From Polaribacter sp. WD7 (GTDB taxonomy: Bacteria > Bacteroidota > Bacteroidia > Flavobacteriales > Flavobacteriaceae), in NCBI RefSeq assembly GCF_003335085.1, contig NZ_QPEJ01000016.1, positions 124,001-188,000 on the forward strand: 64,000 nt of DNA, in the 5' to 3' direction. Below, piece by piece: positions 10,684 to 57,049 of the stretch (position 1 is the stretch's first letter; every line of letters starts with the position of its first letter). A program made the translations under genes and the position numbers. The notes beneath the pieces are model-generated. The model did not search any database. It had not been told where the DNA came from and was given only the letters and a program-made list of their open reading frames with translations.

Positions 10684-10693
10684 AATTGCAAAC

Positions 10694-12286: not shown

Positions 12287-12441
12287 AATTACTTACTAAT
12301 AACACGTTTTATATAACAGTCAGATTCTGAAAAAGAATTCATATGGTTTGATTAATTTTTGATAAAAGTACAAATATTTCACCCTTTTTGTCGAAAAGGA
12401 GAAATCAATCTAACAAAGTTTTAACAGGTTAATGTTTTTGT

Positions 12442-12475
12442 TTTGTTAGATAGAAATATATATTCCTTATTTTTG
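12442..12475 (+). promoter_or_regulatory. Promoter of the M14 peptidase gene
   Basis: TTTG at 12442-12445 and TATTTTTG at 12468-12475 match the Bacteroidetes -33 and -7 elements with a 22-base spacer; the leader to the ATG at 12493 is about 14 bases. Confidence 0.6.
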
Positions 12476-12492
12476 AAAATCAAACTTTTTTT

Positions 12493-14973
12493 ATGAAAAT
12501 TAAATCTCTTTTGTTAGTTGCTTTTCTTATTTCCGAAAGCCTATTTTCTCAAACAATACAATCTCCTTCAGAATTTTTGGGTTACGAAATTGGCTCTCGT
12601 TTTACAAGGCATCATAAGGTTGTAGAATATTTTACGCATGTTAGTAACTCATTATCTAACGTTGTGCTTGAAAAATATGGAGAAACCAATGAACGTAGGC
12701 CTTTGTATTTAAGCTATATTTCATCAGAAAAAAACATCTCTAATCTAGAAACGATTAGAACAAATAATCTTGCTCAGACTGGTATTATTTCTGGTAAAGC
12801 CACTAATAATATTGCTATAGTTTGGTTGAGTTATAATGTTCATGGAAACGAAGCATCTAGTACAGAAGCTGCTATGTTGACTCTTTATGAATTGGTGACA
12901 AAGAAAAAAGAATGGTTAAAAAACACTGTAGTTATTATAGATCCTTGTATAAATCCTGATGGAAGAGACAGGTATGTAAACTGGTATAATCAAGTAAAAA
13001 GTACCCCATTCAATACCAATCAAGATGCAAAAGAACATTCAGAGCCATGGCCTGGAGGTAGGCCAAATCATTATTTATTTGATTTGAATAGAGATTGGGC
13101 ATGGGCTACTCAAGTAGAATCTCAACAAAGAATAAAAATGTACAACAAATGGATGCCACATATTCATGTAGATTTTCATGAACAAGGAATTAATGATCCG
13201 TATTATTTTGCTCCTGCAGCAGAACCTTTTCATGAAATTATTTCTGATTGGCAGCGTAACTTTCAAAACGAAATTGGAAAAAATCATGCAAAATATTTTG
13301 ACAAAGAAGGCTGGTTATATTTTACCAAAGAGAGTTTCGATTTATTATACCCAAGTTATGGAGATACTTACCCAACCTACATGGGTGCTATTGGAATGAC
13401 TTATGAACAAGCAGGACATGGAAGAGCCGGTTTAGGCATAAAAACTGACGAAGGTGAGATATTAACACTTAAAGATAGAGCTTTACACCACATGACAACT
13501 GGTTTATCTACGGTAGAAATTTCTTCTCAAAATGCTGATCAATTGAATATTGAATTTAAAAATTTTTTTAATAACAACTCTTTACAATATAAAAGTTATG
13601 TTTTAAAAAATGATAATGTAGACAAAACAAATCGTCTAAAAGCACTCTTAGATCTCCATGAAATTGAATATGAAGTTGCTAAAAACGGAACTGTTAAAGG
13701 CTACAATTATATGAGCCAAAAAGAAGAGAAAATGATTGTTTCTACTTCTGATTTGGTTATTCATACCCAACAACCCAAAGGAAAAATGGTAAAAGTATTG
13801 TTTGAACCAAAAACAAAATTAGTAGATTCGTTAACGTACGATATTACAGCTTGGTCTTTACCCTATGCCCATGGTCTTAAAGCCGTTGCTTCTACTACTA
13901 AGGTAGCTTCATCAAAAAGTACTATACCCCAATCAACAACAAATACTATTGACACAAATGCTTATGCTTATATTTCAAAATGGAATAGTATTGATGATGC
14001 AACTTTTTTAGGAGCATTATTGCAAGCTGATATTACACCTCGTTTTTCTAATCAAGCATTTACAATTGATAAAAAGGTATACGCTGCTGGGAGTTTAATT
14101 ATTTTAAGAAATGACAATAGAAGTGAAGATTTTGACTCTAAATTAGTTGCTATTGCAAATACGCATAAAAGAAGATTACAGCCTGTTACTACTGGTTTTG
14201 TAGACAAAGGTGTAGATTTTGGTTCTTATGCTGTAAACCCCATAAACAAACAAAGAATTGCTGTGTTGTCTGGTAAAGAAACTTCTTCTTTAAGTTTTGG
14301 TGAAGTATGGCACTTTTTTGAGACTCAATTACAATACCCTATTACAACCTTGAATTCTGATTATTTTAGTAAAGTAAACTTTTCTAATTATGATGTCATT
14401 ATTATTCCTAGTGGATACTACAGTAAGGTTTTAAGTAAAACTATTTTAGAAAAATTTGTAAAATGGACCCAATCTGGAGGAACTTTACTGGTTATTGGAG
14501 AGGCTCTAAATAGTTTTGCGGATCACAAAAGTTTTGCATTGAAAAAGAAAAAAAATAGAACTAAAATAGAAGAACCCAATTTAACTCCTTATGCAGATAG
14601 AGAGCGTAACAATGTTAAAAATTTTATTACTGGAAGCATATTTAACAGCACGCTAGACCACACACATCCTTTGGCTTTTGGTTATGACAAAGAATACTTT
14701 TCTTTAAAATTAAGCGGAACGTCTTATGAACTGCTACAAAAAGGAAATAACGTAGGTTATTTTGGAAATTATACTACAAATGTTTCTGGTTTTGCAGGTA
14801 ACGATGCTTTAAAGAACGTACCTAAATCTTTACTTTTTGGTGAAGAAAAGAAGGGAAGCGGAAGTATTATTTATATGGTAGATAATCCGCTATTTAGATC
14901 ATTTTGGGAAAACGGAAAACTTTTTGTTGCTAACGCTGTATTTTTACTAAATTCTGATATCTTAAAACATTAG
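12493..14973 (+). CDS. Secreted M14 family zinc metallopeptidase
   Basis: The 826-residue protein starts with a signal peptide ending in LFSQ (residue 20). The M14 carboxypeptidase domain follows, with zinc ligands H117 and E120 in HGNEASSTE, the arginine-rich PDGRDRY loop and the third ligand His in VDFHEQG (about residue 229). The catalytic glutamate should be in GMTYEQAG near residue 310. Long C-terminal regions of about 500 residues include a class I glutaminase-like segment (NYDVIIIPSGYYS, then SGGTLLVIGE), as in many Bacteroidota M14 proteins. It probably trims peptides in the envelope or outside the cell. No T9SS sorting domain is seen at the C-terminus. It is convergent with the Dph6-like gene with a 16-base gap. 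Confidence 0.9.
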   Translation: MKIKSLLLVAFLISESLFSQTIQSPSEFLGYEIGSRFTRHHKVVEYFTHVSNSLSNVVLEKYGETNERRPLYLSYISSEKNISNLETIRTNNLAQTGIISGKATNNIAIVWLSYNVHGNEASSTEAAMLTLYELVTKKKEWLKNTVVIIDPCINPDGRDRYVNWYNQVKSTPFNTNQDAKEHSEPWPGGRPNHYLFDLNRDWAWATQVESQQRIKMYNKWMPHIHVDFHEQGINDPYYFAPAAEPFHEIISDWQRNFQNEIGKNHAKYFDKEGWLYFTKESFDLLYPSYGDTYPTYMGAIGMTYEQAGHGRAGLGIKTDEGEILTLKDRALHHMTTGLSTVEISSQNADQLNIEFKNFFNNNSLQYKSYVLKNDNVDKTNRLKALLDLHEIEYEVAKNGTVKGYNYMSQKEEKMIVSTSDLVIHTQQPKGKMVKVLFEPKTKLVDSLTYDITAWSLPYAHGLKAVASTTKVASSKSTIPQSTTNTIDTNAYAYISKWNSIDDATFLGALLQADITPRFSNQAFTIDKKVYAAGSLIILRNDNRSEDFDSKLVAIANTHKRRLQPVTTGFVDKGVDFGSYAVNPINKQRIAVLSGKETSSLSFGEVWHFFETQLQYPITTLNSDYFSKVNFSNYDVIIIPSGYYSKVLSKTILEKFVKWTQSGGTLLVIGEALNSFADHKSFALKKKKNRTKIEEPNLTPYADRERNNVKNFITGSIFNSTLDHTHPLAFGYDKEYFSLKLSGTSYELLQKGNNVGYFGNYTTNVSGFAGNDALKNVPKSLLFGEEKKGSGSIIYMVDNPLFRSFWENGKLFVANAVFLLNSDILKH

Positions 14974-30946: not shown

Positions 30947-31203
30947 TGAGTACAAATGTTAACATATTGGCAAAAGGATTAAAAAGGCTGGCTATTTTAA
31001 TCCTTTTATTTATCATTTCTCCTATTTCTCTTACTATGGGATTCAAGGGGCTAAAAGAATATCAAAATTCTCCTAAAGCTATTTTCTCTTACATTTTAAT
31101 AAGTGTAGCTGGTTTGTTAATCATATACACCATTTTTTTTGCTATAAGAACATTTAAAATATTATTAAACGCTTTTTTTAACGATAAAAATGCCAAATTC
31201 TGA
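30946..31203 (+). CDS. Small membrane protein, DUF6095-like
   Basis: The 85-residue protein has two transmembrane segments (about residues 14-33 and 46-68) joined by a short loop GFKGLKEYQNSP. It resembles the flavobacterial DUF6095 family from memory; no function is known. Its ATG overlaps the murQ stop (TAATG), and its end overlaps the next gene by 14 bases, so the three genes form a translationally coupled unit. Confidence 0.7.
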   Translation: MSTNVNILAKGLKRLAILILLFIISPISLTMGFKGLKEYQNSPKAIFSYILISVAGLLIIYTIFFAIRTFKILLNAFFNDKNAKF

Positions 31204-32188
31204 CGGAATTATTGTCATCCTTTCTTATCCAGATACAGTAGTAAGACCTGCTTATTCTGAGTTTTCTAGTAAAATTTGGCCATTAATTGGTGTAGGTGGT
31301 AAACATGCTGTACAAGCTGGTCACGCTGCACTTTTGCTCATAAAAAAAGGAGAGTCTGAAATTAATTATTTTGATTTTGGAAGATACATTACCAGTTTTG
31401 GAAATGGTAGAGTCCGATCGAAAGAAACTGACCCTGAACTGGTTGTTCCTGTTAAAGCAAAGTTTGAAAAAGGCACATTGATAAATCTAGATGACATCTT
31501 ACTTTGGTTAGATAAACATCCTGAAAAAACTCATGGAGAAGGAAGATTAATTGCATCAACAAACACAAAGATTGATTACACTAAAGCATCAATATTTATA
31601 AAAAAACTGATAGCCCAAAAAGAGGTTCCTTATGGTGCATTTGTAAAGAACGGAACCAATTGCGCTCGTTTTGTTACTGATACTATTGTAAACTCTACAA
31701 AAAATAAAAAAATAAAGAAACAGTTAAAAACTTCAAATTTACTAACCCCTAGCCCTATAGGGAATGTAATTAAAGGAAGTTCAAACAACAAAATTTTTGA
31801 AGTTAACAATCAAAAAATAGATAGCTACAAAAATAGATCTATACTTAAAGAATACAAAGAATGTTTCTTAAAAAGAATAGACATAGCACCTAATTTGATA
31901 GGAACAGAAAAACCAAATACTACCGTTTTTTCTCCAAAAAATGCAACTTGGTTAGGAGGCATAGGTAGTGGTGCTTGGTTTAAAGTAGGAAATCAAATTG
32001 ATGAAAGAACCTTTACAATTTTTAGATATACATCTGAAGGTATTAAAGATTCAGAAGGTATTTATACAGCCAATTGCACCTCTTTTGATGCTAGCAAAAA
32101 GCATAAATTTATATACCCTACAAACTGCAAAGAAGCTTACATATATCAGCATCAAAAAAGATTTGTTTTAACGTTAAACAGTAAGTAA
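31190..32188 (+). CDS. Putative cysteine-hydrolase-like protein (DUF6695-like)
   Basis: This 332-residue protein resembles a flavobacterial family that I recall as DUF6695, without assigned function. The first half has a histidine in QAGHAALLLI (about residue 46) followed about 110 residues later by a cysteine in GTNCARFVTDTI (about residue 160). That His-before-Cys order is seen in permuted NlpC/P60 and LRAT-like papain folds, which act on amides or lipids; this is a prediction. No signal peptide is visible. It is the third gene of the murQ unit, overlapping the DUF6095-like gene, which suggests a cell-wall or envelope role. Confidence 0.65.
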   Translation: MPNSDGIIVILSYPDTVVRPAYSEFSSKIWPLIGVGGKHAVQAGHAALLLIKKGESEINYFDFGRYITSFGNGRVRSKETDPELVVPVKAKFEKGTLINLDDILLWLDKHPEKTHGEGRLIASTNTKIDYTKASIFIKKLIAQKEVPYGAFVKNGTNCARFVTDTIVNSTKNKKIKKQLKTSNLLTPSPIGNVIKGSSNNKIFEVNNQKIDSYKNRSILKEYKECFLKRIDIAPNLIGTEKPNTTVFSPKNATWLGGIGSGAWFKVGNQIDERTFTIFRYTSEGIKDSEGIYTANCTSFDASKKHKFIYPTNCKEAYIYQHQKRFVLTLNSK

Positions 32189-32375: not shown

Positions 32376-35285
32376 ATGGCTAAAAATTATATTGTATTTT
32401 TTCTTTTCCTTTTTTTTATTAACCAAAAATACTCAGCTCAAGATTATTCTACAAAACAAATACAAGAGCTCGTAGACGCTTATAAAAATGATATTAGAGG
32501 TCCTTATTATAGAATAAAATGGTTTTGTAAAGATGGTAGTATTCGCGATGCCAAAGATCCTTGTCCTGATGATATAGGAGGTGGTATACAGCACGCAAGT
32601 TTTAAAACATCTGCTTTAGAATTGAGAGATAAAAATCACCTGTTTTTTGGAGAAATTTTAGCTGCAAACAATCAGATTGAATTTTTAGATCAAAAGAACA
32701 ATTATAGTCGTTTAAAACAATACCAAATAAATAATTATTTAAAAAGTATTGATGACGGATGGATTTTAAGAAAAGGACAATACTATAGAGGTGCTATACA
32801 GTCTGAGGACGAAGAGGCTTGGGGAAAAGGTTTTTTTGAAACCGTATTAAAAAATGATGACTTTATTACATCTAATTATTATTTAATTAAACAAATCTTA
32901 AAAGACGTACCGCATAATGGAGAAACCAATTTAGGTCAATTGATGCGTAGCGAGTCTAAAATTTTAGCAGAAGATATTCCTGAATTTATGAATATTCGTA
33001 TTAAAATTCATGGTAATCCGCAAGAAAGTGATATCAATTTAGTACAAGACTTTGTTTCAAAAAACAAGGCAAATCTATCTCTACAACAACAAAAAGATTT
33101 ACAGAATCTAGTTTTAACAATGCAAAAGTTTTATGCGCCCCTAGATTTTAAATCAATTGATAGCGTTGTGGCAAACTTTACCGAAAAGAATATTGTAGTA
33201 GAAGAACTGAAAAACTTTTCTAAATATTTTAATGAATACAAAACATCAAAAACGATAACAGAAAAATCAGCAAACCTTTTGGTTACTATTAGAAAAAGTA
33301 TTTTAGACTTTAACTCTTCAAAAGATCGATTACAGCTCTTAGATATTAGCAATCAAATAGATAATATATTACTCATAGAAACTCAAAACTGGAAAACAGA
33401 AACACTTCAAGAAACCATAGGAAAAATCAAAACACTTTCATGTGCTGCTTTGGGTAATGGTCTTATAGAATTTTGGGAATATAATGAAGTAGAAAAAAGG
33501 TTTGATGACCTTTTGAAAAAAGAGACTACTACCATAGAAGAATTGAATAGTATATTAAATACTGCAAGAAGTATTGTTGAATGGAGTGCCTCTTTGATAA
33601 AAGCAAATTACAATCATGACGTCTTAAATTATACAAAGTTTGAGCACCTTGCATATGGTTTTATAGACGACAGAGTGCGTAACAGTATAGCCCTTAATTT
33701 GGGTGAAACCGTTAGTAAGCTTGGTACTTTTGTAGCCCAAATTTCTAATATTAATAATGATGTAATGTCTATTAAAAACCAGAGTTCTATTAGAGGTTTA
33801 AATCCTGGATATGCTTTTGGAAAGTTGGTAGTGGTAGATGGAAACCCAGACGAGGTTGAAGTCAATACGAACAATATTTATATTTTTCAAAACCCTCCAT
33901 CAGATTTGAAACCAGTGGCAGGAATTATGACTGTTTCTGAAGGAAACTTGGTTTCTCATGTACAATTGTTGGCTAGAAATTTAGGAATACCAAATGCAGC
34001 ATTATCAAATAAAAATCTTGTTGATCTAGCAAAATACAACGGTAAACAGGTATTTTACGCAGTTTCTCATAAAGGAAATGTGATTTTAAAATCTGAAGAT
34101 GATATGACCAATGAAGAGCAGCTTCTTTTTGTAAAAAAAGAAAAAAGTAAAAACATGATTGAAGTGCCTACAAAAGAGATTCGTTTAGATGTTGCTAAAA
34201 TCATAAACATGAATCAAGTTAATGCTTCAGATTCAGGCAAGTTATGTGGGCCAAAAGCAGCTAATCTAGGGGAATTGAAACAACTTTTTCCTAATCAAGT
34301 TGTAGAAGGTTTAATTATACCTTTTGGAGTTTTTAAAGCTCATATGAATTTAGAAATGCCCAATGAAAATAAAAGTTACTGGAGTTTTTTAAATGATACC
34401 TTTAAAGAAGCAAAATATAAAAAAGAAAACGGAATTTCTGAAGATCAAATAGAAACTTATCTCTTAGAATCTCTAGGAAAATTACACAAAGCCATTTTGG
34501 ATATACCGTTAAATGATGCATTTATAGGCGATTTAAAGAATAGTTTTAAAACTATTTTTAAAAACGAAATTGGCAATATACCTGTATTTTTAAGGAGTGA
34601 TACCAACATGGAGGATTTAAAAGAATTTACAGGAGCTGGTTTAAATTTAACACTATTCAATATAAAAAAAGAAAACGAAATAATACAAGGGATTAAACGC
34701 GTTTGGGCATCTGCATACACAGACAGAAGTTTTAAATGGAGGCAAAAATATTTGTTAAATCCAGAAAATGTATACCCTTCTATTTTAATAATACCAAGTG
34801 TAGATGTAGATTATTCTGGCGTTATGATAACAAAAGGAATAAATGTTGGTACAGATCAAGACCTAACCGTCGCTTTTTCTAGAGGTGCAGGTGGTGCTGT
34901 AGACGGGCAATCTGCAGAAACTAGGTTAATTACCCAAGAATCAGATTACTTACTTGCCCCTGCAAGACAATCAAACTACATTCGTTTACCCAATTATGGA
35001 GGCACAAAACAATATTTTACAACCTTTGAAAAAGAAATCTTAAATAAAGAAAATATACAAGACATCCGAGAATTGGCTAAAACCATTCGAAAAAAAATTG
35101 GTGAAAAAACAGATGATAAAAATCAAGCCTTTGACGTTGAGTTTGGTTTTAGAGATAATAAGTTATGGCTGTTTCAAATAAGACCATTTGTAGAAAACAA
35201 ACAAGCCAAAAGTTCTGATTATTTAAACTCCATTACTCCAAAAATATCGGGTAACAAACAAATTAAGATTACTGAAAAAATATAA
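32376..35285 (+). CDS. Exported dikinase-like protein: phosphohistidine domain followed by PPDK-type ATP-grasp
   Basis: The 969-residue protein starts with a classical signal peptide (MAKNY, a 12-residue hydrophobic core, cleavage after YSAQ near residue 22). About 440 residues without recognised domains follow. A PEP-utiliser mobile (swivel) domain covers about 470-590 with the phosphorylatable H528 in LVSHVQLLARNLGIPNA, and a PPDK/PEP-synthase ATP-grasp domain covers about 618-945 with KAANLGEL, FLRSDTNMEDL, DVEFGF and the closing FQIRPF, so nucleotide and metal-binding residues are present. The TIM-barrel PEP/pyruvate domain is missing. The order His domain then ATP-grasp is that of glucan water dikinases, not of PpsA or PPDK. 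A serine hydrolase gene follows after two bases. Confidence 0.82.
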   Translation: MAKNYIVFFLFLFFINQKYSAQDYSTKQIQELVDAYKNDIRGPYYRIKWFCKDGSIRDAKDPCPDDIGGGIQHASFKTSALELRDKNHLFFGEILAANNQIEFLDQKNNYSRLKQYQINNYLKSIDDGWILRKGQYYRGAIQSEDEEAWGKGFFETVLKNDDFITSNYYLIKQILKDVPHNGETNLGQLMRSESKILAEDIPEFMNIRIKIHGNPQESDINLVQDFVSKNKANLSLQQQKDLQNLVLTMQKFYAPLDFKSIDSVVANFTEKNIVVEELKNFSKYFNEYKTSKTITEKSANLLVTIRKSILDFNSSKDRLQLLDISNQIDNILLIETQNWKTETLQETIGKIKTLSCAALGNGLIEFWEYNEVEKRFDDLLKKETTTIEELNSILNTARSIVEWSASLIKANYNHDVLNYTKFEHLAYGFIDDRVRNSIALNLGETVSKLGTFVAQISNINNDVMSIKNQSSIRGLNPGYAFGKLVVVDGNPDEVEVNTNNIYIFQNPPSDLKPVAGIMTVSEGNLVSHVQLLARNLGIPNAALSNKNLVDLAKYNGKQVFYAVSHKGNVILKSEDDMTNEEQLLFVKKEKSKNMIEVPTKEIRLDVAKIINMNQVNASDSGKLCGPKAANLGELKQLFPNQVVEGLIIPFGVFKAHMNLEMPNENKSYWSFLNDTFKEAKYKKENGISEDQIETYLLESLGKLHKAILDIPLNDAFIGDLKNSFKTIFKNEIGNIPVFLRSDTNMEDLKEFTGAGLNLTLFNIKKENEIIQGIKRVWASAYTDRSFKWRQKYLLNPENVYPSILIIPSVDVDYSGVMITKGINVGTDQDLTVAFSRGAGGAVDGQSAETRLITQESDYLLAPARQSNYIRLPNYGGTKQYFTTFEKEILNKENIQDIRELAKTIRKKIGEKTDDKNQAFDVEFGFRDNKLWLFQIRPFVENKQAKSSDYLNSITPKISGNKQIKITEKI

Positions 35286-35287
35286 AT

Positions 35288-36601
35288 ATGAAAAAAATAT
35301 ACGTTTTAATCATTGCCTCAATAATCATTTCTTTAGGTTTTATAAAATATCCCATAGATGGTTACGAATATTCTGGTATCAAACGCTTATATCAAATAAG
35401 ACAATTTCAAAAAGACAGTGTTAGGTATAATAGAATACCCAATGGCGCTTACAAAAAACTACAAGACATTAAGCTAAACCTGTTGCATAAAACAACCGAT
35501 AGTGTAAACGATTTATTAGTTTTAGACGAAAATTTTGATCGAAAAATAAAGAAAATTACTCCTAGCGGAAACTACTCATTGGCAATTATGGATATGAGTA
35601 ACCCTGATGCCTTACGATATGCAGAGCATAGAGAAAACATAGGCTATCAACCAGGTAGTGTAGGTAAAATAGCGGTTTTACTGGCGGTTTTTGACCAACT
35701 TGCAAAACTTTGTCCAGACTCTTTTGAAGAGAGAATAGCCTACTTAAAAAAAATAAAAGTGAATAGTAGATACTGGGGTCTAGGAGACCATCATACCATA
35801 CCTATATACGATATTGAAAAAGACAGACTAAGCAAAAGACAAGTAATAGCAAGTGATGAGTTTTCACTTTTTGAATGGTTAGATCATATGGTTTCGGTTA
35901 GCAATAATGGTGCTGCAAGTATTATGTATAGAGAAGCGATGCTTATGGCTGCTTTTGGTCAAGACTATTTTTTCTTAAATGAAGAAAAGGCCGAAAAGTA
36001 TTTTAAAGAAACGCCTAGAGATTCTTTAACCAACTTAGCAAACAGCGTGGTAAACCAACCTTTACGAAATTTAGGTATTGGAGAAAATGAATGGAGATTG
36101 GGTGGGTTGTTTACAAGACCTCCGGGGAAATACGTGGGTAGAAAAGGTGGTAGTATAGGCACTCCAAAAGGATTGATGAAATTTTTAGTAAAACTAGAAC
36201 AAGGAAAAGTTGTAGACGAAAAATCAAGCTTAGAAATGAAACGTTTATTGTATTTAACAGACAGAAGAATCAGATATGCCAAATCTTCTAGATTGGATGA
36301 TGCAGCTGTCTATTTTAAATCTGGTAGTTATTATAAGTGCGATAGAGAAAAAGACCCAAATTGTGCGAGTTATGCTGGTAACGTTTTTAATTATATGAAC
36401 TCTGTCATTATTGTAGAGCACGACAACGGAATTAAATATATTGTGTGCTTAATGTCTAATGTTTTAAATAAGAATTCTGCTGGGGCTCATATGTATTTGG
36501 CTAGTAAAATTGACGACGTTGTTAACGAAACTGCAAACTTGAACAAGCCTAAAATACAAGAAGAAGAATACAAATCTGATAAAGACGAACAAGACAATTA
36601 A
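35288..36601 (+). CDS. Serine hydrolase, class A beta-lactamase/PBP-like, membrane-anchored
   Basis: The 437-residue protein has an N-terminal hydrophobic segment (residues 4-19) acting as signal or anchor. The penicilloyl-serine transferase triad is present: SVGK at residues 124-127 (nucleophile S124), SNN in VSVSNNGAAS, and KSG in FKSGSYYKC. Its last about 25 residues are charged. The fold resembles class A beta-lactamases, but proteins of this sort in Bacteroidota are often of unknown substrate. It begins two bases after the dikinase-like gene (one operon) and its stop overlaps the convergent transporter stop by four bases. Confidence 0.8.
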   Translation: MKKIYVLIIASIIISLGFIKYPIDGYEYSGIKRLYQIRQFQKDSVRYNRIPNGAYKKLQDIKLNLLHKTTDSVNDLLVLDENFDRKIKKITPSGNYSLAIMDMSNPDALRYAEHRENIGYQPGSVGKIAVLLAVFDQLAKLCPDSFEERIAYLKKIKVNSRYWGLGDHHTIPIYDIEKDRLSKRQVIASDEFSLFEWLDHMVSVSNNGAASIMYREAMLMAAFGQDYFFLNEEKAEKYFKETPRDSLTNLANSVVNQPLRNLGIGENEWRLGGLFTRPPGKYVGRKGGSIGTPKGLMKFLVKLEQGKVVDEKSSLEMKRLLYLTDRRIRYAKSSRLDDAAVYFKSGSYYKCDREKDPNCASYAGNVFNYMNSVIIVEHDNGIKYIVCLMSNVLNKNSAGAHMYLASKIDDVVNETANLNKPKIQEEEYKSDKDEQDN

Positions 36602-39423
36602 TTCATATTTTTTAATAATTTCACATAAGTATCGTAAGCAAATTGTCCTACAATTCTATTACGATACTTTTTTAATGGAAGTAACACAGGAATAAATTCT
36701 CTGCTGTTAGAAATATTCACATAACTTATAACAAGATGTTTTATACCACTTCCACTAATATTCATGATTTTTTTTAGATAATCAACTTCTTTTAAAGTAG
36801 TTAAATTTAAAAACAATGTATTAACTGTATTCTTTTCTGCTACCTGATATTCTAGTAAAGGTAAAATTACCGCTCTTAAATTTCTTTCTAACAAATTTTC
36901 TAACAACTCTATAGCATTTATTTTAGCTTCTCTTACGCCACTGTTTATAGCTTTTTGAATTATTTTAACATCATTCTCATTATACAATAAGCTTAATAGA
37001 TTAAACAGTGTAGTAAAAGATTTTTTCACTTCAATTTCTAAAACACTATAAATTTTCTTACGTGCCTCTATTAATTGTTTATTATGCTCTTTATCATCCA
37101 TTAATTCTAGATTCATATGATGCTCAATAGAACTCATGATTTCTAAAATACTTTTATGATAAATACATTCTTTATAAATGCTTCTTTTTATGATTTTAGC
37201 AGAAATTAACAAATTCTCATCATTCCTTTTTAATCTTCTAAAAGCTTTGGAGGTCTCTAATCTAGTAGTTGTATTCTTACTTTTTAAAGTTATTTTTAAT
37301 ATTTTTAAAGCATTTCTATTTTTAAAAGCAGCAACTATTTTAGGTATATTTTTTTTAATATCGGGTTCAAGCTCATCCTTATATTCTAAATCTAACAATA
37401 CGTTTATAATTCTTGGTCCATAACTTTTTAAAGCTTTTATCCCCTTTTTTCTGTGTTGTTTAGTTTTAAGAAGTTTTAATAAATCATCTATAAAAATTTT
37501 ATGAGATGTTATACCCGCTGCAATTGTTGCAAACTTTATATTATATGGTTCTTCTGATTTTAAATTATCAGTTATTAAACTATAATAATTTGTAAACCTA
37601 GTATATGCAATACTTAGCAATAGTCCTGCAATAATTTCTTTTCTAGCATTACCTTCTTCTGTAGTGTAAAACTCTATTTTACTCTTCAAGCGATTTTTTA
37701 AACTATAGGTATTTGCTAATTTTTGGTTATGTTGACTTTGTTTGGCTAATGCCAAAATAGCTCCGTTTGCTACGTATTCGTCTTGATGATCTAAATAGGT
37801 GTTAAAAAAAGTTTTTTCGGTAATTGGAGAGTGCACTAAAATATATTCTAAGGCCACATACACCAAAACATCATCTTTTTTTGACACCAAAGAAGTAATC
37901 TTATTTAAAATATTATTATCATCAAAAGCATCTAAATAACTAATTGCAGCAACCTTTATTTTGTTTGAAGGGTGGTCTAGTAACTCTATAACCAAAGGTT
38001 GTAATACCTTTAATTTATAATCTTTTAACTGATTGAACATCTTTAAAATAGCTTCATCATCATCAGATTTCAAGACGTTTTTAATATGTAACAAACTGTC
38101 TTGTTTTTTTAGTTTATCTTTATTATAATTTACATTTTCTAATGTTGCTTGTATATTAGCTTTAAATGACTCAAAATAAGCTTCTCTTAATTTGTAGATC
38201 AACACAATCCAAACAAAAACAAAGAAGAGAATAATTACGGAAATATAAGAGGTACTTAAATTTAATTTTTTGATGAAAAAAATCAGTAAAAAACCCGCTA
38301 CCCCAGTTGCTATACTATCTACAGCAACATCTATGTATGATTTTGCTTGATTTTTGACCTGAAGTGGAATAGGCATAATAGACAACTCTATAGCAGCTTT
38401 ATTTAAACTTTGTTTGAAACTACCATCTATTCCTTTTACAATAACAAGTACCCACAATTCTGGGAATGTTAAAAAAAGTAGACCTCCTAGTCCTAAAGCT
38501 AATGGCAACAATAGAAGAGAAGAAGAAACACCAAGTTTTGTGATAACCTTATTGGTAAAAAATAACTGAATTATTAAGGCTATTACATTAAAAGTAGAAA
38601 ACCAAAACCCAAAAAAAGCGGTTAAATCATCAGAATTTGATATGGCTTTGTTTGCAAAATCGCTAAATTGATAGTCTACTAGTTTGGCTACAATTACACT
38701 TATTCCAACAATAAAGGCTAAAAAGGTTAAATGTTTCGATTTAAAAATGAGTCTAACAGAGGAATTTTCTAATTGATCCTGACGCTCTATTATTTGTTTT
38801 CGCTTAAATGTGTTTAAATAACGTATTCTTAAATTGTAAACTTTTTTTAATATAGGAATACAAAATAACAGTAAAATTGAAGCTATAAAAATGGTGTATT
38901 CTTTACCAAAAGTACTTGCTACTAAACTAGTTAAGTATCCTCCAAAAATACCACCTGCTATAGCCCCAGCTCCAATAAAACCAAAAATTCTTTTAGCTTC
39001 TCTTGCATTAAAAACCATATTTGCAAAAATCCAAAACTGAGATGTAGCTAAGACTGCAAATAAAGAAACAAATATGTAATAGAAAAAAAGAAAAAAGGTG
39101 CTTGTAAAGTTATATTTGAGTAAAAACCCTAATAAAGCAAAAACAATACTAAATGTTAGGAGTGATAAAACAGTTATTTTAACCAATGAAAACTTTCTGA
39201 TAGCTTTACTATAAAAATAAGTAGTGATTACCGCCGTAACTGCAACAAGAAGGTAGCCGTATGGTAATTGATCTGCCCCTAAATTAGAAATAAATAATGC
39301 ATTTATTGAGGGTTTAACAATTAGTAAAACTGTTATGATAATAAAAATATATAATTGCATTAAAAAAGAGATGAATATTTCTCCATCTCTTAATCCTAAT
39401 GTTTTATTTATAATTTTTCTCAA
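36598..39423 (-). CDS. ATP/ADP translocase-like (NTT/Npt family) transporter fused to HEAT repeats
   Basis: The first about 420 residues of this 941-residue protein form about twelve membrane segments and resemble Npt1/Npt2-type nucleotide transporters, with KPSINALFISNLGADQLPY, given here in part as the PSxNALFxxxLGxxxLPY block near residues 38-55. The remaining 500 or so residues are a series of helical HEAT-like repeats (for example SNKIKVAAISYL and DEYVANGAILAL), probably cytoplasmic and binding a partner. Known NTT proteins exchange ATP/ADP or import nucleotides in intracellular bacteria and plastids; free-living Bacteroidota carry homologues of unknown substrate. It follows a class A serine hydrolase gene by 19 bases on the same strand. 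Confidence 0.75.
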   Translation of the reverse strand: MRKIINKTLGLRDGEIFISFLMQLYIFIIITVLLIVKPSINALFISNLGADQLPYGYLLVAVTAVITTYFYSKAIRKFSLVKITVLSLLTFSIVFALLGFLLKYNFTSTFFLFFYYIFVSLFAVLATSQFWIFANMVFNAREAKRIFGFIGAGAIAGGIFGGYLTSLVASTFGKEYTIFIASILLLFCIPILKKVYNLRIRYLNTFKRKQIIERQDQLENSSVRLIFKSKHLTFLAFIVGISVIVAKLVDYQFSDFANKAISNSDDLTAFFGFWFSTFNVIALIIQLFFTNKVITKLGVSSSLLLLPLALGLGGLLFLTFPELWVLVIVKGIDGSFKQSLNKAAIELSIMPIPLQVKNQAKSYIDVAVDSIATGVAGFLLIFFIKKLNLSTSYISVIILFFVFVWIVLIYKLREAYFESFKANIQATLENVNYNKDKLKKQDSLLHIKNVLKSDDDEAILKMFNQLKDYKLKVLQPLVIELLDHPSNKIKVAAISYLDAFDDNNILNKITSLVSKKDDVLVYVALEYILVHSPITEKTFFNTYLDHQDEYVANGAILALAKQSQHNQKLANTYSLKNRLKSKIEFYTTEEGNARKEIIAGLLLSIAYTRFTNYYSLITDNLKSEEPYNIKFATIAAGITSHKIFIDDLLKLLKTKQHRKKGIKALKSYGPRIINVLLDLEYKDELEPDIKKNIPKIVAAFKNRNALKILKITLKSKNTTTRLETSKAFRRLKRNDENLLISAKIIKRSIYKECIYHKSILEIMSSIEHHMNLELMDDKEHNKQLIEARKKIYSVLEIEVKKSFTTLFNLLSLLYNENDVKIIQKAINSGVREAKINAIELLENLLERNLRAVILPLLEYQVAEKNTVNTLFLNLTTLKEVDYLKKIMNISGSGIKHLVISYVNISNSREFIPVLLPLKKYRNRIVGQFAYDTYVKLLKNMN

Positions 39424-39442: not shown

Positions 39443-40375
39443 CTATAAAGAACGTGATTTTTTTAATACTTTTTCTAATGGTTTTACTAAATTTCTAATT
39501 AATTGCTCTCCATAGTCATAGTCTATTAGTGCTACGATGATGTATTTTCTATCAGGTCCCCAAACTAAAGCGGAGTCAGAATGGTAATTTCTCCAAGAAC
39601 CAGATTTTCTATAAATATCAGCCTTTGGAGCCACTTTATCTAAAGTATTTACAAATTTATGGTGTAGCTCTGGATTTTTCATAATTTCTAACATTTCTTT
39701 AGAACGCTCTGTACTAATTAAATTTCCTAGGGCCAATTGATAGTAAAAACTACATACTTGTCTTGTAGTTGCTGCATGACTCAAACCTTTAATTGGGTCT
39801 GGGTATCTTTTACCCTTAGCCGCATAACGTTTTCCAACCCATAAACCTCCACCAACTTCTTCGTCATAAAGTTTATATTTCGGTGCTCTTAAAACATCTT
39901 CAATTTTTTTGTAACCTACCCTGTCTATCATTCGTGTAGATGCCTTATTGTTTGATTTACTTATCATTAATCGTAAATCTTTTTTTACTTCACTTGTATA
40001 CGCTAATTCTCCTTTATCTATGGCATCCATAGAGGCTAATAAAATGGCAATTTTTGGTAAACTTGCCGCATACATCATAAAGTCATCGTTTAATCCTGCG
40101 TATTTAAAATTGGTACTATCACTCATATCTACAATACCTATAGACATTTGTTTTCCTTTAATCAAACGTTTCCAAGTTTTGTTAGCGTTTACCTCATCCT
40201 CTAGTATCGTTTGTAAATTAGCATTTTGAATTTCTTTAATTGGTTTAATCTCCTCGTTTAATTCAATCGGCAATGCCACTTTAGAGTTTTTATATGTATT
40301 TTGCCCTAAAATGCAGATAGAAAAAGTTAATAGTAAAATTGTAAAAATATTAGTTTTTTGTTTTTTTAAAATCAT
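39443..40375 (-). CDS. Class A beta-lactamase-like serine hydrolase
   Basis: The 310-residue exported protein has a signal peptide (hydrophobic residues 10-22) and the class A motif set: SLPK at residues 105-108 (nucleophile S105), SNN in ISKSNNKAS, and KSG in YRKSGSW. The glutamate of the omega loop is not evident from inspection. It could be a beta-lactamase or a peptidoglycan-acting relative. It lies 19 bases upstream of the NTT-HEAT gene and is probably co-transcribed with it. Together with the facing operon this puts one serine hydrolase beside each half of the cluster. Confidence 0.82.
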   Translation of the reverse strand: MILKKQKTNIFTILLLTFSICILGQNTYKNSKVALPIELNEEIKPIKEIQNANLQTILEDEVNANKTWKRLIKGKQMSIGIVDMSDSTNFKYAGLNDDFMMYAASLPKIAILLASMDAIDKGELAYTSEVKKDLRLMISKSNNKASTRMIDRVGYKKIEDVLRAPKYKLYDEEVGGGLWVGKRYAAKGKRYPDPIKGLSHAATTRQVCSFYYQLALGNLISTERSKEMLEIMKNPELHHKFVNTLDKVAPKADIYRKSGSWRNYHSDSALVWGPDRKYIIVALIDYDYGEQLIRNLVKPLEKVLKKSRSL

Positions 40376-51421: not shown

Positions 51422-54400
51422 TTGAAATCTAAATTATATATATTCTTACTTTTATGCTCTTTTATATGCATAAAAAAAGTTAATGCACAGTTAAGCCAAA
51501 AACATTATATACCACCATTAACTACAGCAGATTCAAATAGTTCTAACCCTAATGAACAGTTTATATACATTTCTACACCCAGCAATCAAAATATAAATTA
51601 CACCATAAAACAGATTGGTTCTAATAATGATATTACAGGAGTAGTATCAAAAACTAACCCTATAGAATTTTTTATTGGTGATGGGGCAAGCCAATTATTT
51701 GTCAATGCTAATGAAACCAGTAGAGTTCATAACAACAAAGGGTATATTATAGAGGCAGAAGGTGGTCAAATTTATGTTTCTGTTAGAGCAATTGGTGGTG
51801 GAGGTTCTCAAGCAGGAGCCTTAGTTAGTAAAGGTAATGCTGCTTTAGGAACAACTTTTAGAGCGGGTATGTTTGACAGTCAGAATCCGCAAGACAACTA
51901 TTTAAATTTTATTTCTGTAATGGCTACAGAAGATGACACTAAAGTTAATTTTTCTGATTTACCTAGCGGAATTTCAATTACTAATTTTAATGGAGGAGCA
52001 AACATTCCTGAAATAACATTAAATGAGGGTGAAAGTTATATTGTAGCTACAAATTCTGATGAAAACCTTGTTAATAGAGATGCATTAATTGGTACCTTAA
52101 TTCAAGCCGATAAAAATATTGTCGTAAATTCTGGTTCTGCCAATGGTAGTTTTGGTTCTGGACAAGCTAGAGATTATGGTATAGATCAAATTGTAGATGT
52201 TTCTAAAGTTGGTACAGAATATATTTTTGTAAGAGGTTTAGGTGCTGATGAATGGGAAAATGTATTAATTGTTGCCCATGAAGACAACACCAGAATAAAC
52301 GTTAATGGCAACTTTTTTGACAGCATAAATGCGGGTGAGTTTGCTATTATAGAGGGAGACCGATATTCTAGTAATGAAAATATGTATGTTGCTACAAGTA
52401 GACCTGCATTTGCTTATCAAGGTGTTGGTGGTTTAAATAGAAATGGTAGCCCAAGTGAAGCTAACCAAGGTATGTTTTTTGTGCCCCCATTAAGTTGCGA
52501 AAGTAGAGGTAATGTAGACAATATTGCAGCTATAGATCAAATAGGTAATGTCACTTTTGATGGTGGTATTACTATTGTTACCAATAGTGGAGCTAACATA
52601 CTTATTAACGGACAACCAATTAGTGCATTTTCTCCTGATGGACCTAGTACTGTTACCGGAAACAATGCCTATGTAACCTATAAAGTTACTGGTCTTTCTG
52701 GTAATGTAAGTGTAGAAAGTAGTGAAGAATTGTATTGTGCCTACTTTAATCAAAATGGAGCTGCTACTTCAGGGAGTTTTTACTCAGGTTTTTTAACGGC
52801 TCCAGAAATCAATTTTAGCACCACCATAACCTCTCTTGGAAACTGTATACCTAACGTTACATTAAGTGCTTCTAACACCAATTTATTTGATAGTTTTAGA
52901 TGGGAGTTTTTAAATGAAATTACAAATATTTGGGAATCCAGAAGTACATCCTCTTCTTACATTCCTGATGTTCCTGGTAGGTATCGTTTGGTAGGTAATG
53001 TAGACTGTAATCCTACAGAAGATTTTATTTCTGATGAAATACCTGTTAGTGCTTGTCCTGATGATTTTGATAATGACTTAATCATCGATAATTTAGACTT
53101 AGATTTAGATAATGACGGTATTATAAACGATGTAGAATCTCTAGGTAACGCTTTTATTAACCTACTTGATATTGAAAATCCTGAAATAATTTTTCAAGAT
53201 AACTCAACAAATAATAGTATTATTTCTAGTCAATACAGAGATAGTGAACCCAGTAATTCTCTTACCGGAGACAATAACGGTAATTTTCAATCTACTATTA
53301 CTCCTGCTGTAAATTCTAATTTAGAATATGTACTAAACTTTACGCAAAATGTAAATTTTACAATAACACAAGATATTGCTAGAGACCACGAGATTACAGA
53401 AGGTGAATTTTTTATTATAAAAATTGGTCCAAATAACAAAAACGTTACGTTATTAGACCCAGATGATCAACTTTTAGTAGATACTAATTTTGATGGAGAA
53501 TTTGAAACTGGTGTTACCACAATTTCTGCTTCAGAAATTCATTTTAAATACAAAGCAAATACTATAGGTGCAACAAGTTCTTTTGAGTTTTTAGCAGATC
53601 AAGTAAGTAGCATAGAATTTATACATCAATCTACAGGTATTACAAATACCTCAACTTTTAATGGAACAATTCAACTAACCTATTTTTTTAGAGATTCTGA
53701 CGGAGATGGTATAGAAGACGCTAGAGATAATGATTCTGATAATGATGGTATTCCAGATTTTTTTGAATCAGTAGCAATTTCTGGCATCACTTTAAGTAAT
53801 TTAGACATTAACCAAGATGGTATAGATGATATTTTTGATACCCTTACTTCAAACCAAGATACAGATAATGATGGTGTAGCTAATTATTTAGATTTAGATG
53901 CTGATAACGATGGTGTTTATGATCTTATAGAAAGCGGTGTAAACAACACACTTGATACTAATAATGATGGAATTATTGATGATGCAATCTCAAATTCTGG
54001 AACAAACGGACTATACAATCCTATAGAAGATACTATAGATTCTGGAACTATCAACTTTACACTAAGAAATTCAGACGCTAACTCAGAAATTGTTGCTAAT
54101 AGAGATAGTTTATTTGATTTTGTAGATTTAGATGCAGATGGTGATGACTGTTTTGATGTTACAGAAGCTGGTTTTACAGGAAATGGTTCTGGTGTTTTAG
54201 CGCCTAATCCTCTAGATGTAGATGCTAGTGGTAAGGTAAATAATACAGACGGATATAACAACCCAAATAGTGATTATAGTACTTCTGCTCCTATTATTGT
54301 CACATCCTTTAATGATACTGTTATTTGTGAAAATAATTCAGGAAGTATCACTATCCAGACAAATGCAAATAACGAAATGCAATTTAGTTGGGAACAATCT

Positions 54401-57049
54401 ACAGATGGTACAAATTGGAACGTATTAAGTAATAACGCTACTTTTATGGGGGTTACTACCAATATATTACAAATAACAAATACGCCAATAAGCTTAACAA
54501 ACACTCAATACAGAGTTGTATTAACAAGAACAGGAAATAGTTGCCCTAGAACATCAGACCCTGTAACACTCACTGTTAATGCTTTACCTAATATTATAAA
54601 TAACCCATCTACTTTACAACAATGTATTAGTGCTTCTAATGCAAATCCTACAGTAAACTTGACAAATGCCGAGGTTAATATTTCAGACACTTCTAACGTT
54701 ACTTTTGAGTATTACACAGACGCTAGTGCTACTTCTAGAATTACAGACCCAACCGCTTACCCTGTTGCAGTAAATACAACAGAAACAGTATTTGTTAGAG
54801 TTATTTCTGACGAAGGGTGTTTTGATACTGCTGTACAGCTTGATGTTAATGTTGCTCAAGTTTCTGATAACCCATATAATGATCTACAACCCCCTGTTTG
54901 TGATGATTTTTTACAAGCAGATGGTACAAATGGTCCAAACAATAGCGATACAGATAACATTACAACGTTTATGTTAGACAAAACGAGTATTGAAAATGGA
55001 ATAAATCCACCAGCGAATACAATAATTACGTATTATGAAAACATACAAGATAGAGCCAATACATTAAATGAAATTAATATTACCAATTTTAGAAATGATA
55101 TTACTAAAAATGATGTAACTACTATTAATGGAGGCATTCAATTTCCTATTTACTATAGAATTACAAGTACGCTTAACAATAATTGTGCTGGTCTTGGACA
55201 GTTTATTGTTCAAATAAATAGTGTCCCAATAGTAAGTAGTCCTGTTTTAACGCCTATTGAAGATTGTGATACTGGCGCCATTGATGGCAATCAAAATAAC
55301 GGACGTAATTCTGGTATAGATTTAACCATAAAAATTAACGAAGCTTTATCTGGTACTGGTCAAAATACTACAGATTTCCCTGTAGAATTTTATAAATCTC
55401 AATCTGCAGCATTTATAGGAGATACTAGTAGCAACGATTTTATTGCAAACCCTAGTGATTACACAAATGATGTTCCAACAAATTTTACTCCAGGAAACAT
55501 ATCTGTGCAAACTATATACTTAAGAGTAGAAAATACAGCAACAGGGTGTTTTAATGCAAACGCAAGTTTCGATATTATTATCAATCCCGCACCTGTGGTT
55601 CCTAACGTTATTACGCCTTTAGAAGTTTGTGATATTGGCTCTAATGATGGTGCAACAAGAAATGGTTTGGCACAAAATATAGATGTTAGTCAAAAAGATA
55701 TTGAATTAACAGGCAGCGTAAACGCTTCTAATTTTACAGTAACCTATCATAAAACCATAACCGATTTACAAGATTTAAATTCAACAGGAATAGACAAATT
55801 TAGTTACGAATCAGATTTAAATAGAGTTACTATAAATACAACCACAAACGTTAGTGAAGAAAATCTATTTGTTCGTATTGTTAACAATAGTACAGGTTGT
55901 ATTTTTGATGAAGGACAAATAACAATTATTGTTAATCCAGAACCAGAAAGTCAAGTTGTATCTAACCTTGCTACTTGTGATAATAATGAGGATGGAAATG
56001 ACACCAACGGAATAGTTCAAAATATAGATTTAAATGGAAAAATTCCTGAAATTCTTGGACCAAATCAAAACCCAAATGATTTTACAGTAAGTTTTCACTT
56101 GAGTCCTGCTGATGCAGCTACGGGTTCAAGTAGTCTTTCTTCTCCATATCAAAATTCAGCTCCTCTAGAAACAATTTATGTACGTATTCAGAATAAAAGA
56201 ACAAGTTGTGTAAATAGTGATGCTTTTTTTCAAGTCATAGTCAATCCTTTACCTGATTTTGATATCACAACTCCGCAAATATTGTGTTTAAATGATATTC
56301 CTCTACGAATAAACGTCGAAAACCCAGCTGATGCTTATAGTTATGTTTGGAAAGATGACCAAGACAACACTATAAGTACCTCAGAATTTGCAGATATTTC
56401 TGCTGGAGGAATCTACACTGTTACAGCAACTACTACAAACGGAACATTATGTTCTAGAGAAAGAGAAATTGAAATCATAGAATCTAACCCTGCTCTTTTA
56501 AACGAAAGTTTGATAACTATTATTGATGAATCTAACAACATTGGCTCAGAAGATAAAATTTCTGTAATTATCAACAATACAAATAATGCTCTCGGAATAG
56601 GAGATTATCAATTTGCCATTAGAAATGATGATACCAACACAAGAATCCCTTTTGTTGGGTTTCAAGCAGAACCTATTTTTGAAAACTTAGAAGGAGGTAT
56701 ATATACCGTAATTGTAAATGATAAAAATGGTTGTGTGCCTGATGCCGAATTGCAAATTTCTGTAATTCAGTTTCCTAAGTTTTTCACTCCAAATGGAGAC
56801 AACACAAATGATACTTGGACTGTTAGAGGAGCAAACCAAACATTTTTTCCGAATAGTAGTATAAACATTTTTAACAGATACGGACAGTTAATTGCAAAAG
56901 TAGCTATAGATAGTGCTGGTTGGGATGGTATCTACAATGGCAAAGTACTACCTTCTGATGATTATTGGTATAGTGTTCAATTAATACCTGTAGATACTAC
57001 CAAACCACCCATCTTAAAAAAAGGACATTTCTCATTATTAAGAAGATAA
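51422..57049 (+). CDS. Giant T9SS type B surface protein (gliding-motility-associated C-terminal domain)
   Basis: The 1875-residue protein has a signal peptide ending VNAQ (residue 23) that depends on a TTG start at 51422; no ATG start fits. The first about 480 residues resemble IgGFc-binding-like domains found in flavobacterial adhesins. Ca-binding thrombospondin type 3-like runs follow (DxDNDGIxD, about residues 545-565, 757-790 and 800-905), then several Ig-like/PKD-type repeats of about 110 residues, each with an invariant pair of cysteines. The last about 95 residues start FPKFFTPNGDNTNDTW and form a type B sorting domain for the Por/T9SS machinery. It is a likely cell-surface adhesin or motility accessory. 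Confidence 0.87.
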   Translation: MKSKLYIFLLLCSFICIKKVNAQLSQKHYIPPLTTADSNSSNPNEQFIYISTPSNQNINYTIKQIGSNNDITGVVSKTNPIEFFIGDGASQLFVNANETSRVHNNKGYIIEAEGGQIYVSVRAIGGGGSQAGALVSKGNAALGTTFRAGMFDSQNPQDNYLNFISVMATEDDTKVNFSDLPSGISITNFNGGANIPEITLNEGESYIVATNSDENLVNRDALIGTLIQADKNIVVNSGSANGSFGSGQARDYGIDQIVDVSKVGTEYIFVRGLGADEWENVLIVAHEDNTRINVNGNFFDSINAGEFAIIEGDRYSSNENMYVATSRPAFAYQGVGGLNRNGSPSEANQGMFFVPPLSCESRGNVDNIAAIDQIGNVTFDGGITIVTNSGANILINGQPISAFSPDGPSTVTGNNAYVTYKVTGLSGNVSVESSEELYCAYFNQNGAATSGSFYSGFLTAPEINFSTTITSLGNCIPNVTLSASNTNLFDSFRWEFLNEITNIWESRSTSSSYIPDVPGRYRLVGNVDCNPTEDFISDEIPVSACPDDFDNDLIIDNLDLDLDNDGIINDVESLGNAFINLLDIENPEIIFQDNSTNNSIISSQYRDSEPSNSLTGDNNGNFQSTITPAVNSNLEYVLNFTQNVNFTITQDIARDHEITEGEFFIIKIGPNNKNVTLLDPDDQLLVDTNFDGEFETGVTTISASEIHFKYKANTIGATSSFEFLADQVSSIEFIHQSTGITNTSTFNGTIQLTYFFRDSDGDGIEDARDNDSDNDGIPDFFESVAISGITLSNLDINQDGIDDIFDTLTSNQDTDNDGVANYLDLDADNDGVYDLIESGVNNTLDTNNDGIIDDAISNSGTNGLYNPIEDTIDSGTINFTLRNSDANSEIVANRDSLFDFVDLDADGDDCFDVTEAGFTGNGSGVLAPNPLDVDASGKVNNTDGYNNPNSDYSTSAPIIVTSFNDTVICENNSGSITIQTNANNEMQFSWEQSTDGTNWNVLSNNATFMGVTTNILQITNTPISLTNTQYRVVLTRTGNSCPRTSDPVTLTVNALPNIINNPSTLQQCISASNANPTVNLTNAEVNISDTSNVTFEYYTDASATSRITDPTAYPVAVNTTETVFVRVISDEGCFDTAVQLDVNVAQVSDNPYNDLQPPVCDDFLQADGTNGPNNSDTDNITTFMLDKTSIENGINPPANTIITYYENIQDRANTLNEINITNFRNDITKNDVTTINGGIQFPIYYRITSTLNNNCAGLGQFIVQINSVPIVSSPVLTPIEDCDTGAIDGNQNNGRNSGIDLTIKINEALSGTGQNTTDFPVEFYKSQSAAFIGDTSSNDFIANPSDYTNDVPTNFTPGNISVQTIYLRVENTATGCFNANASFDIIINPAPVVPNVITPLEVCDIGSNDGATRNGLAQNIDVSQKDIELTGSVNASNFTVTYHKTITDLQDLNSTGIDKFSYESDLNRVTINTTTNVSEENLFVRIVNNSTGCIFDEGQITIIVNPEPESQVVSNLATCDNNEDGNDTNGIVQNIDLNGKIPEILGPNQNPNDFTVSFHLSPADAATGSSSLSSPYQNSAPLETIYVRIQNKRTSCVNSDAFFQVIVNPLPDFDITTPQILCLNDIPLRINVENPADAYSYVWKDDQDNTISTSEFADISAGGIYTVTATTTNGTLCSREREIEIIESNPALLNESLITIIDESNNIGSEDKISVIINNTNNALGIGDYQFAIRNDDTNTRIPFVGFQAEPIFENLEGGIYTVIVNDKNGCVPDAELQISVIQFPKFFTPNGDNTNDTWTVRGANQTFFPNSSINIFNRYGQLIAKVAIDSAGWDGIYNGKVLPSDDYWYSVQLIPVDTTKPPILKKGHFSLLRR

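Follow-up and report, generated by a model that had tools for sequence, protein, structure and literature searches.

The window analysed here, a stretch of 64,000 nucleotides from Polaribacter sp. WD7 (contig NZ_QPEJ01000016.1), carries a gene, DIK (32376..35285, plus strand), whose 969-amino acid (aa) product we read, with a probability of roughly 0.6, as an exported ATP-dependent dikinase-type phosphotransferase of the envelope, and as the centre of a constant enzyme set that also includes two exported serine hydrolases. The reading rests on export-type N-termini, domain order, active-site residues, a gene cassette and the co-occurrence of its members across genomes, all of them observed in sequence. 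The cytoplasm is where ATP-driven enzymes would be looked for, and the conservation of an exported dikinase leads one to ask about its ATP source; a genomic link to a membrane protein of the ATP/ADP-carrier family makes this question testable. The same link gives a starting point for the function of exported dikinases, including predicted cargo of type IX secretion, and of fusions of such carriers to HEAT repeats.

The DIK open reading frame (ORF) begins with ATG, and the sole Pfam family matched by its product at E<=0.01 is PF01326 (PPDK_N), at residues 623-948 (E 4e-29); the same family was found in 47/47 sequences of the DIK family. An AlphaFold2 model obtained from 19 sequences (mean pLDDT 81.7, pTM 0.75) consists of three parts: a helical region up to about residue 460, a swivel (461-577) and an ATP-grasp domain (605-940). 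According to the model, the ATP-grasp domain (annotated as residues 605-945, 34188..35210) is of the rifampin-phosphotransferase/phosphoenolpyruvate (PEP)-synthase type, and it was superimposed on the ATP-grasp domain of rifampin phosphotransferase (RPH) with bound AMPPNP (5hv1) with a Z of 28.3 and an rmsd of 3.5 over 307 residues, and on HpeI (9goj) with a Z of 25.0. The swivel (33756..34106), with the codon of the predicted phospho-acceptor H528 at 33957..33959, is less obvious in the window protein, where both PF00391 (E 0.1) and PF22973 (GWD1_pHisD; E 0.18) fall below the Pfam thresholds and the structure alignment to pyruvate-kinase C-terminal and Enzyme I domains (Z about 9) is modest when taken alone. 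We nevertheless assign a swivelling phosphohistidine domain because PF00391 was found in 47/47 family sequences at E<1 (best 1.2e-4), the family profile gives a second match to PEP synthase 8a8e (i-Evalue 5.4e-4), and the model alignment points the same way. No PEP barrel family appears in the Pfam lists of the window DIK, and the chain stops at residue 969, after the ATP-grasp domain. An earlier note on this DNA, made from the letters alone, had described an exported protein with a phosphohistidine and a PPDK-type ATP-grasp domain, the former preceding the latter as in glucan water dikinases (GWD), and with the PEP barrel missing; each of these points is borne out by the ORF, the profiles, the relatives and the predicted structure. 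The DIK family alignment A2, with 47 sequences, includes the window protein and leaves out L020 (broken frames) and L023 (GTG start), alignments A1 and A6 comprise 19 of the 48 DIK sequences, and L018 is N-terminally truncated in all three.

The helical region (residues 23-460, 32442..33755) is presumed to bind the acceptor. As the earlier note had remarked, its first 440 or so residues resemble no recognised domain: they gave no Pfam match at E<=0.01 and no NCBIfam match at E<=0.1. Folded separately, the N-terminal part reached a pLDDT of 83.4, and its model had no significant Foldseek match against the PDB (best E 0.36); VIA gave a best Z of 9.2 with an rmsd of 11.2, which is at noise level for helical models, and no GWD entry is among the matches listed. 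The region holds many invariant residues in A2 (K37, D53, H73, R138, E144, D145, E146, R191, R208, K210, H212 and D219, with R41 nearly so), and since the charged ones are invariant, a polar acceptor is suggested. Neither PHROGs nor PADLOC gave a match at E<=0.1 that would speak for a phage or defence origin.

The residues expected in an active enzyme are kept. H528, K627, R740, E922, Q934 and R936 are invariant in A2, where identity to the window protein goes down to 29%, and T759 is nearly invariant, which agrees with what the earlier note had read from the single sequence. The positions of RPH-Lm named or mutated in the cited passages of PMC4844700 (K22, R117, T136 and E297) have counterparts in DIK: an alignment of 5fbs residues 111-313 with DIK residues 734-938 equates R740, T759 and E922 with R117, T136 and E297, and K627 lies within one residue of K22 at the start of the structure alignment. 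With its export signal, its domain order and the conserved nucleotide-site residues and H528, DIK is likely to be a phosphotransferase active outside the cytoplasm.

As for export, the predicted signal peptide (residues 1-22, 32376..32441; cleavage site estimated by eye) was identified from hydropathy and from conservation in the relatives. Among the 48 full-length DIK proteins (the window protein and 47 relatives, with the start codons of relatives picked from the alignment), the N-terminal hydropathy peak over 12 residues exceeds 2.0 in 44 and lies at 1.85-1.97 in three more; the L018 protein begins at GTG and has a signal sequence. The median N-terminal peak is 2.63 vs. 2.09 for the strongest peak elsewhere in each protein, a gap such that the case for export leans also on position, pattern and conservation. 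The export-type N-terminus is common to 48/48 proteins, from Flavobacteriaceae to Bryobacterales and Burkholderiales assemblies, which allows us to conclude that DIK carries a predicted export signal, as the earlier note had claimed. That note had also named a start codon after the hydrophobic stretch as a possible objection. Up to residue 230, further in-frame ATG, GTG or TTG codons occur only at 83, 189, 190 and 205, all of them past a conserved block at residues 37-73; with none between the hydrophobic stretch and this block, and with the signal shared by 48 proteins, a wrong start or a frame artefact was rejected. C51 is invariant and C63 nearly invariant in A2, a pair that would suit a disulfide outside the cytoplasm.

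DIK heads a cassette of four genes. Two bases after its end, on the same strand, lies BLAC_A (35288..36601), encoding a PF13354 beta-lactamase-fold serine hydrolase (S124xxK, S205xN, K344SG) with an export-type N-terminus, which may be an uncleaved anchor in place of a cleaved signal. Convergent to these are NTT-HEAT (36598..39423, minus strand), encoding an ATP/ADP-carrier-family membrane protein (about 12 transmembrane segments, residues 1-415) fused to HEAT repeats (PF03219 1e-9, HEAT_2), and BLAC_B (39443..40375, minus strand), encoding a second beta-lactamase-fold serine hydrolase (PF13354 1e-19; S105xxK, S141xN, K257SG), also with an export-type N-terminus. Class A beta-lactamases carry the motifs SxxK, SxN and KxG and an omega-loop glutamate in ExxLN; the family alignments of both BLAC_A and BLAC_B keep SxxK, SxN and KSG, and ExxLN is absent from either consensus, as read by eye. 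NTT-HEAT scored 38.2 bits against PF03219 (cut-off 21), and the profile built on it recovers two ADP/ATP carriers, plant and chlamydial: 9j3j (E 5.2e-11) and 9j3n (E 5.2e-9); hydropathy and charge, read by eye, indicate about 12 transmembrane segments with both termini inside. The earlier note had missed these partner genes on both strands, among them the carrier-family protein, which bears directly on the possible source of ATP.

The arrangement is well kept. BLAC_A adjoins DIK in 49/49 loci, the window's own included. The NTT-HEAT gene was found in 31 of the 39 longer stretches (L002-L020 and L061-L080), in 29 of them together with DIK; in 28 of these 29 its strand is opposite to that of DIK and BLAC_A, and in 27 no ORF separates it from BLAC_A. 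NTT-HEAT and BLAC_B are neighbouring ORFs in 27 of the 29 stretches holding both, the two exceptions being L020, where the NTT frame is broken, and L074, where a further gene intervenes. Genes flanking the cassette vary between genera. The loci L017 and L019 and those of the genomes G372, G388, G585, G517 and G487 hold DIK, BLAC_A and BLAC_B with no NTT in the fetched DNA, and the core therefore appears to consist of three exported enzymes, the carrier being a Bacteroidota addition. The TseH-like protein encoded upstream, a MurNAc-6P etherase and a TonB receptor were considered as parts of the system and rejected, because among the 49 loci they occur beside DIK, apart from the window, only in Polaribacter (L002-L006, L013). 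The TonB receptor stands beside DIK in L004-L006 and L013, and a TseH-like gene is also present in L014, on the other strand; in the window, the TseH-like protein (31190-32188, plus strand; PF25218, 2e-62) has a DUF6695 C-terminus and directly precedes DIK, as kept in Polaribacter loci.

Co-occurrence was scored genome by genome for DIK, BLAC_A and NTT, whereas BLAC_B was scored on fetched loci. The NTT profile, A3, leaves out L020 and L062 (broken or cut), and A5 leaves out L014 (cut by a contig end). In the sample of 199 genomes of the window's family, full-length DIK was found in 39 (nine more gave weak matches only), BLAC_A in the same 39 and NTT-HEAT in the same 39; three further genomes have short NTTs of about 440 aa. 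For the association of DIK with NTT, the Fisher value is 2.8e-38 (relatedness ignored). Among 296 genomes of the phylum sample, DIK was present in 11, from six families, and BLAC_A in the same 11; the NTT profile matched 24 genomes, namely 11/11 DIK-positive and 13/285 DIK-negative ones (Fisher 7.9e-14, shared ancestry ignored). The nine top-scoring NTT genomes are all DIK-positive, partly by construction, since the profile was built from cassette loci and cassette members score high in part for that reason. Furthermore, the genes are present together even where they are unlinked: in G144 they lie on different contigs, in G108 the NTT is 2 Mb away, and in G368 DIK, BLAC_A and NTT-HEAT are apart, BLAC_A being not beside DIK but elsewhere on the contig. 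The co-occurrence thus outlasts the loss of linkage.

DIK relatives occur in Polaribacter, Dokdonia, Winogradskyella, Aquimarina, Kordia and, with broken frames, Lacinutrix, and at 30-31% identity in one Bryobacterales and two Burkholderiales assemblies. In the phylum of locus L017, which we take to be Acidobacteriota from the order name in the record, DIK was found in 4/199 genomes. The distribution is patchy even within the window's genus, where DIK is present in the window genome (G000) and absent in G131 and G283; in the window genome it is the only PPDK_N match. Two loci show interrupted frames. In the complete genome of Lacinutrix neustonica (L020:6001-8898 and 10224-13054) the DIK and NTT-HEAT frames are in several pieces, as pseudogenes or through sequencing errors, and DIK of G487 (C6:40553-43297; L094, L097) has two in-frame TAG codons, the neighbouring BLAC_A and BLAC_B being open.

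Taken together, these data suggest that in some bacteria ATP powers chemical reactions beyond the cytoplasm. As to how, we infer the catalysis, the acceptor, the targets of the hydrolases and the direction and substrate of the carrier as follows. The ATP-grasp domain would bind ATP, H528 of the swivel would take the beta-phosphate, and AMP and Pi would be released; the swivel would then rotate towards the N-terminal helical domain, where a bound acceptor would receive the phosphate. The active-site serines of BLAC_A and BLAC_B may serve to cleave or transfer acyl groups of this same substrate, or of its precursor. In Bacteroidota, NTT-HEAT in the inner membrane, with its HEAT domain facing the cytoplasm, would carry ATP out to the periplasm, with a spent nucleotide probably going the other way, and in this way it probably supplies DIK. 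The full scheme, a dedicated ATP-fuelled phosphorylation system of Bacteroidota in which NTT-HEAT pumps ATP to the periplasm and the exported dikinase and two serine hydrolases work on an envelope polymer, is put forward tentatively. If true, a clade of NTT-HEAT fusions would have a role, and the periplasm a dedicated energy supply.

Several observations weigh against an active exported enzyme or against its supply by the carrier. ATP is generally not expected in the bacterial periplasm, and the export, activity and substrate of DIK are predictions from sequence and model. According to the passages of PMC4844700 on RPH-Lm, the E297A variant retained activity, so that E922 of DIK alone says little on catalysis. 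The T/SxxGGxxxH swivel motif given for related dikinases in the part of PMC12167813 drawn on here reads TVSEGNLVSH in DIK, the second glycine being replaced by N524 in 47/47 sequences. As for the carrier, PF03219 marks the family of NTT-HEAT and not ATP as its cargo. In the phylum sample, five DIK-negative genomes (G276, G341, G384, G438, G474) hold full-length, lower-scoring NTT-HEAT fusions (the other eight DIK-negative matches cover mainly the NTT part), and the DIK-positive G372 has only a 441-aa NTT that lacks HEAT repeats. In the L017 phylum, PF03219 was found in 3/4 DIK-positive vs. 5/20 DIK-negative genomes (24 of 199 examined; Fisher 0.09), and three DIK loci of this phylum show no NTT in the fetched 5.1, 10.7 and 19 kb; in G485 (L018) DIK is present and PF03219 gave no hit. 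The NTT-HEAT proteins of G257 and G259, however, escaped PF03219, and its misses are therefore weak evidence. An NTT specificity outside Bacteroidota is unsupported by G485 and by the PF03219 counts in the L017 phylum. Finally, two other exported dikinase families occur in 9/199 genomes of the window's family, and only 1 of the 9 has an NTT match, which means that an exported dikinase needs no such carrier and rules out an NTT dependence of exported dikinases in general.

These two families consist of proteins of about 640 aa and about 1460 aa, and the active-site residues of DIK are kept in four aligned proteins drawn from both. The shorter exported proteins, with His and ATP-grasp domains, are encoded at L087:3778-5667 (plus strand), L088:995-2920 (minus strand) and L105-L107, the frame of L107 being longer and its start ambiguous; the 642-aa protein of L088 matches PF22973 at 6.6e-4, below the cut-off. 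The longer ones, with His and PPDK_N ATP-grasp domains, are at L089:402-4781 and L090:2910-7277 (both minus strand) and in L101-L104. The proteins of L089 and L090 have further matches to CARDB, SprB, lamin-tail and Por_Secre_tail, which makes a dikinase-type enzyme a predicted cargo of type IX secretion. Elsewhere in the window, 51422-57049 (plus strand) encodes a protein of 1875 aa that has an IgGFc_binding domain together with a CHU_C signal for type IX secretion.

Other explanations of DIK were weighed against the same data. It is rather unlikely that DIK is a secreted analogue of glucan water dikinase with a storage, capsular or dietary polysaccharide as its acceptor. The order of His and ATP-grasp domains is the same, PF22973 was found in 21/47 family sequences at E<1 (best 0.011) and more clearly in the L088 protein, and one related family bears a type IX sorting domain; yet the Pfam list of the window protein contains no carbohydrate-binding family, and no carbohydrate enzyme was recognised in the conserved cassette. 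Of the earlier note's suggestion of an active envelope phosphotransferase acting on a glycan or other polymer, we retain the likely activity outside the cytoplasm and find the choice of acceptor unsupported by the Pfam list.

Less probable still is a protective function, in which DIK, like an RPH moved outside, would inactivate an antibiotic or another toxic small molecule within the periplasm, with the BLAC proteins detoxifying too, as a mobile protection island. That RPH is the closest solved ATP-grasp fold, that the partners are beta-lactamase-like and that the distribution is patchy, also within the genus, are all consistent with this idea. Against it, the conservation of three enzymes together across several phyla is easier to reconcile with a single pathway than with independent defences, and neither hydrolase consensus contains ExxLN, a motif of class A enzymes. 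A rifampin-binding-type fold is not among the matches listed for the N-terminal model, which are at noise level.

We consider it improbable that the system serves nucleotide salvage, NTT-HEAT importing nucleotides that DIK or the hydrolases release outside. The NTTs of intracellular parasites do import nucleotides, as stated in PMC5381601, and the co-occurrence in the family sample is strict; however, a dikinase working forward consumes ATP, its reversal towards ATP synthesis would need a high-energy phosphate donor, and in the L017 phylum the loci retain DIK together with both hydrolases, with no NTT adjoining. Most doubtful of all is a catalytically dead envelope scaffold, for which the odd place for an ATP enzyme and the GN in place of GG before the histidine could be adduced, since the six active-site positions are invariant down to 29% identity and are kept again in the four proteins of the two other exported families.

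An exported phosphotransferase that forms a core with two serine hydrolases thus remains our preferred reading, and its place among known systems can be defined as follows. DIK is, on the basis of its sequence, a member of the PPDK_N dikinase superfamily outside the named families compared. It shares the PPDK_N ATP-grasp domain with PEP synthase and PPDK, in which the His domain follows the ATP-grasp domain and a PEP/pyruvate barrel ends the chain; DIK has neither arrangement, and its NCBIfam equivalog scores are far below the cut-offs. The domain order and the missing barrel therefore exclude it from this family. With RPH it has in common the ATP-grasp fold, the His swivel and the nucleotide-site residues (K22 to within one residue), but in RPH the catalytic histidine is at the C-terminus (cited passages of PMC4844700), whereas DIK runs from an export signal through the N-terminal domain and the histidine to the ATP-grasp domain, an order by which it is not an RPH. 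In HpeHI, CreHI and PpsAB, two polypeptides that act on phenols (cited part of PMC12167813), the substrate domain and swivel are in one protein and an RPH-like ATP-grasp domain in the other; such a pair joined end to end would resemble the order in the single chain of DIK, where the glycine motif of these enzymes is matched inexactly, N524 being invariant.

The glucan and phosphoglucan water dikinases have a His domain followed by a C-terminal ATP-grasp domain, the order also seen in DIK. DIK differs from them in being exported from a bacterium; its PF22973 match is below the cut-off in the window protein. No starch-binding module was found in the Pfam list (E<1) of the window DIK, nor among the 25 of 42 families listed for the 47 sequences. 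With this module missing and PF22973 weak, GWD is the nearest analogue in layout, short of an established family assignment. Secreted CotH-type kinases are kinase-like proteins that also carry export signals in Bacteroidota and likewise raise the question of an ATP source; their fold is unrelated to that of DIK. The window's membrane protein, having PF03219 and HEAT repeats, belongs with the NTT-HEAT fusion transporters; in 2017 PMC5381601 described these as common among bacteria, with functions then unknown, in passages that mention no fixed enzyme partner. Searches in an open-access subset of the literature listed no publication describing an exported dikinase, and none describing the DIK cassette. 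The PPDK_N superfamily itself is known, and the exported dikinase, with the cassette in which it is found, appears to be new relative to the papers searched.

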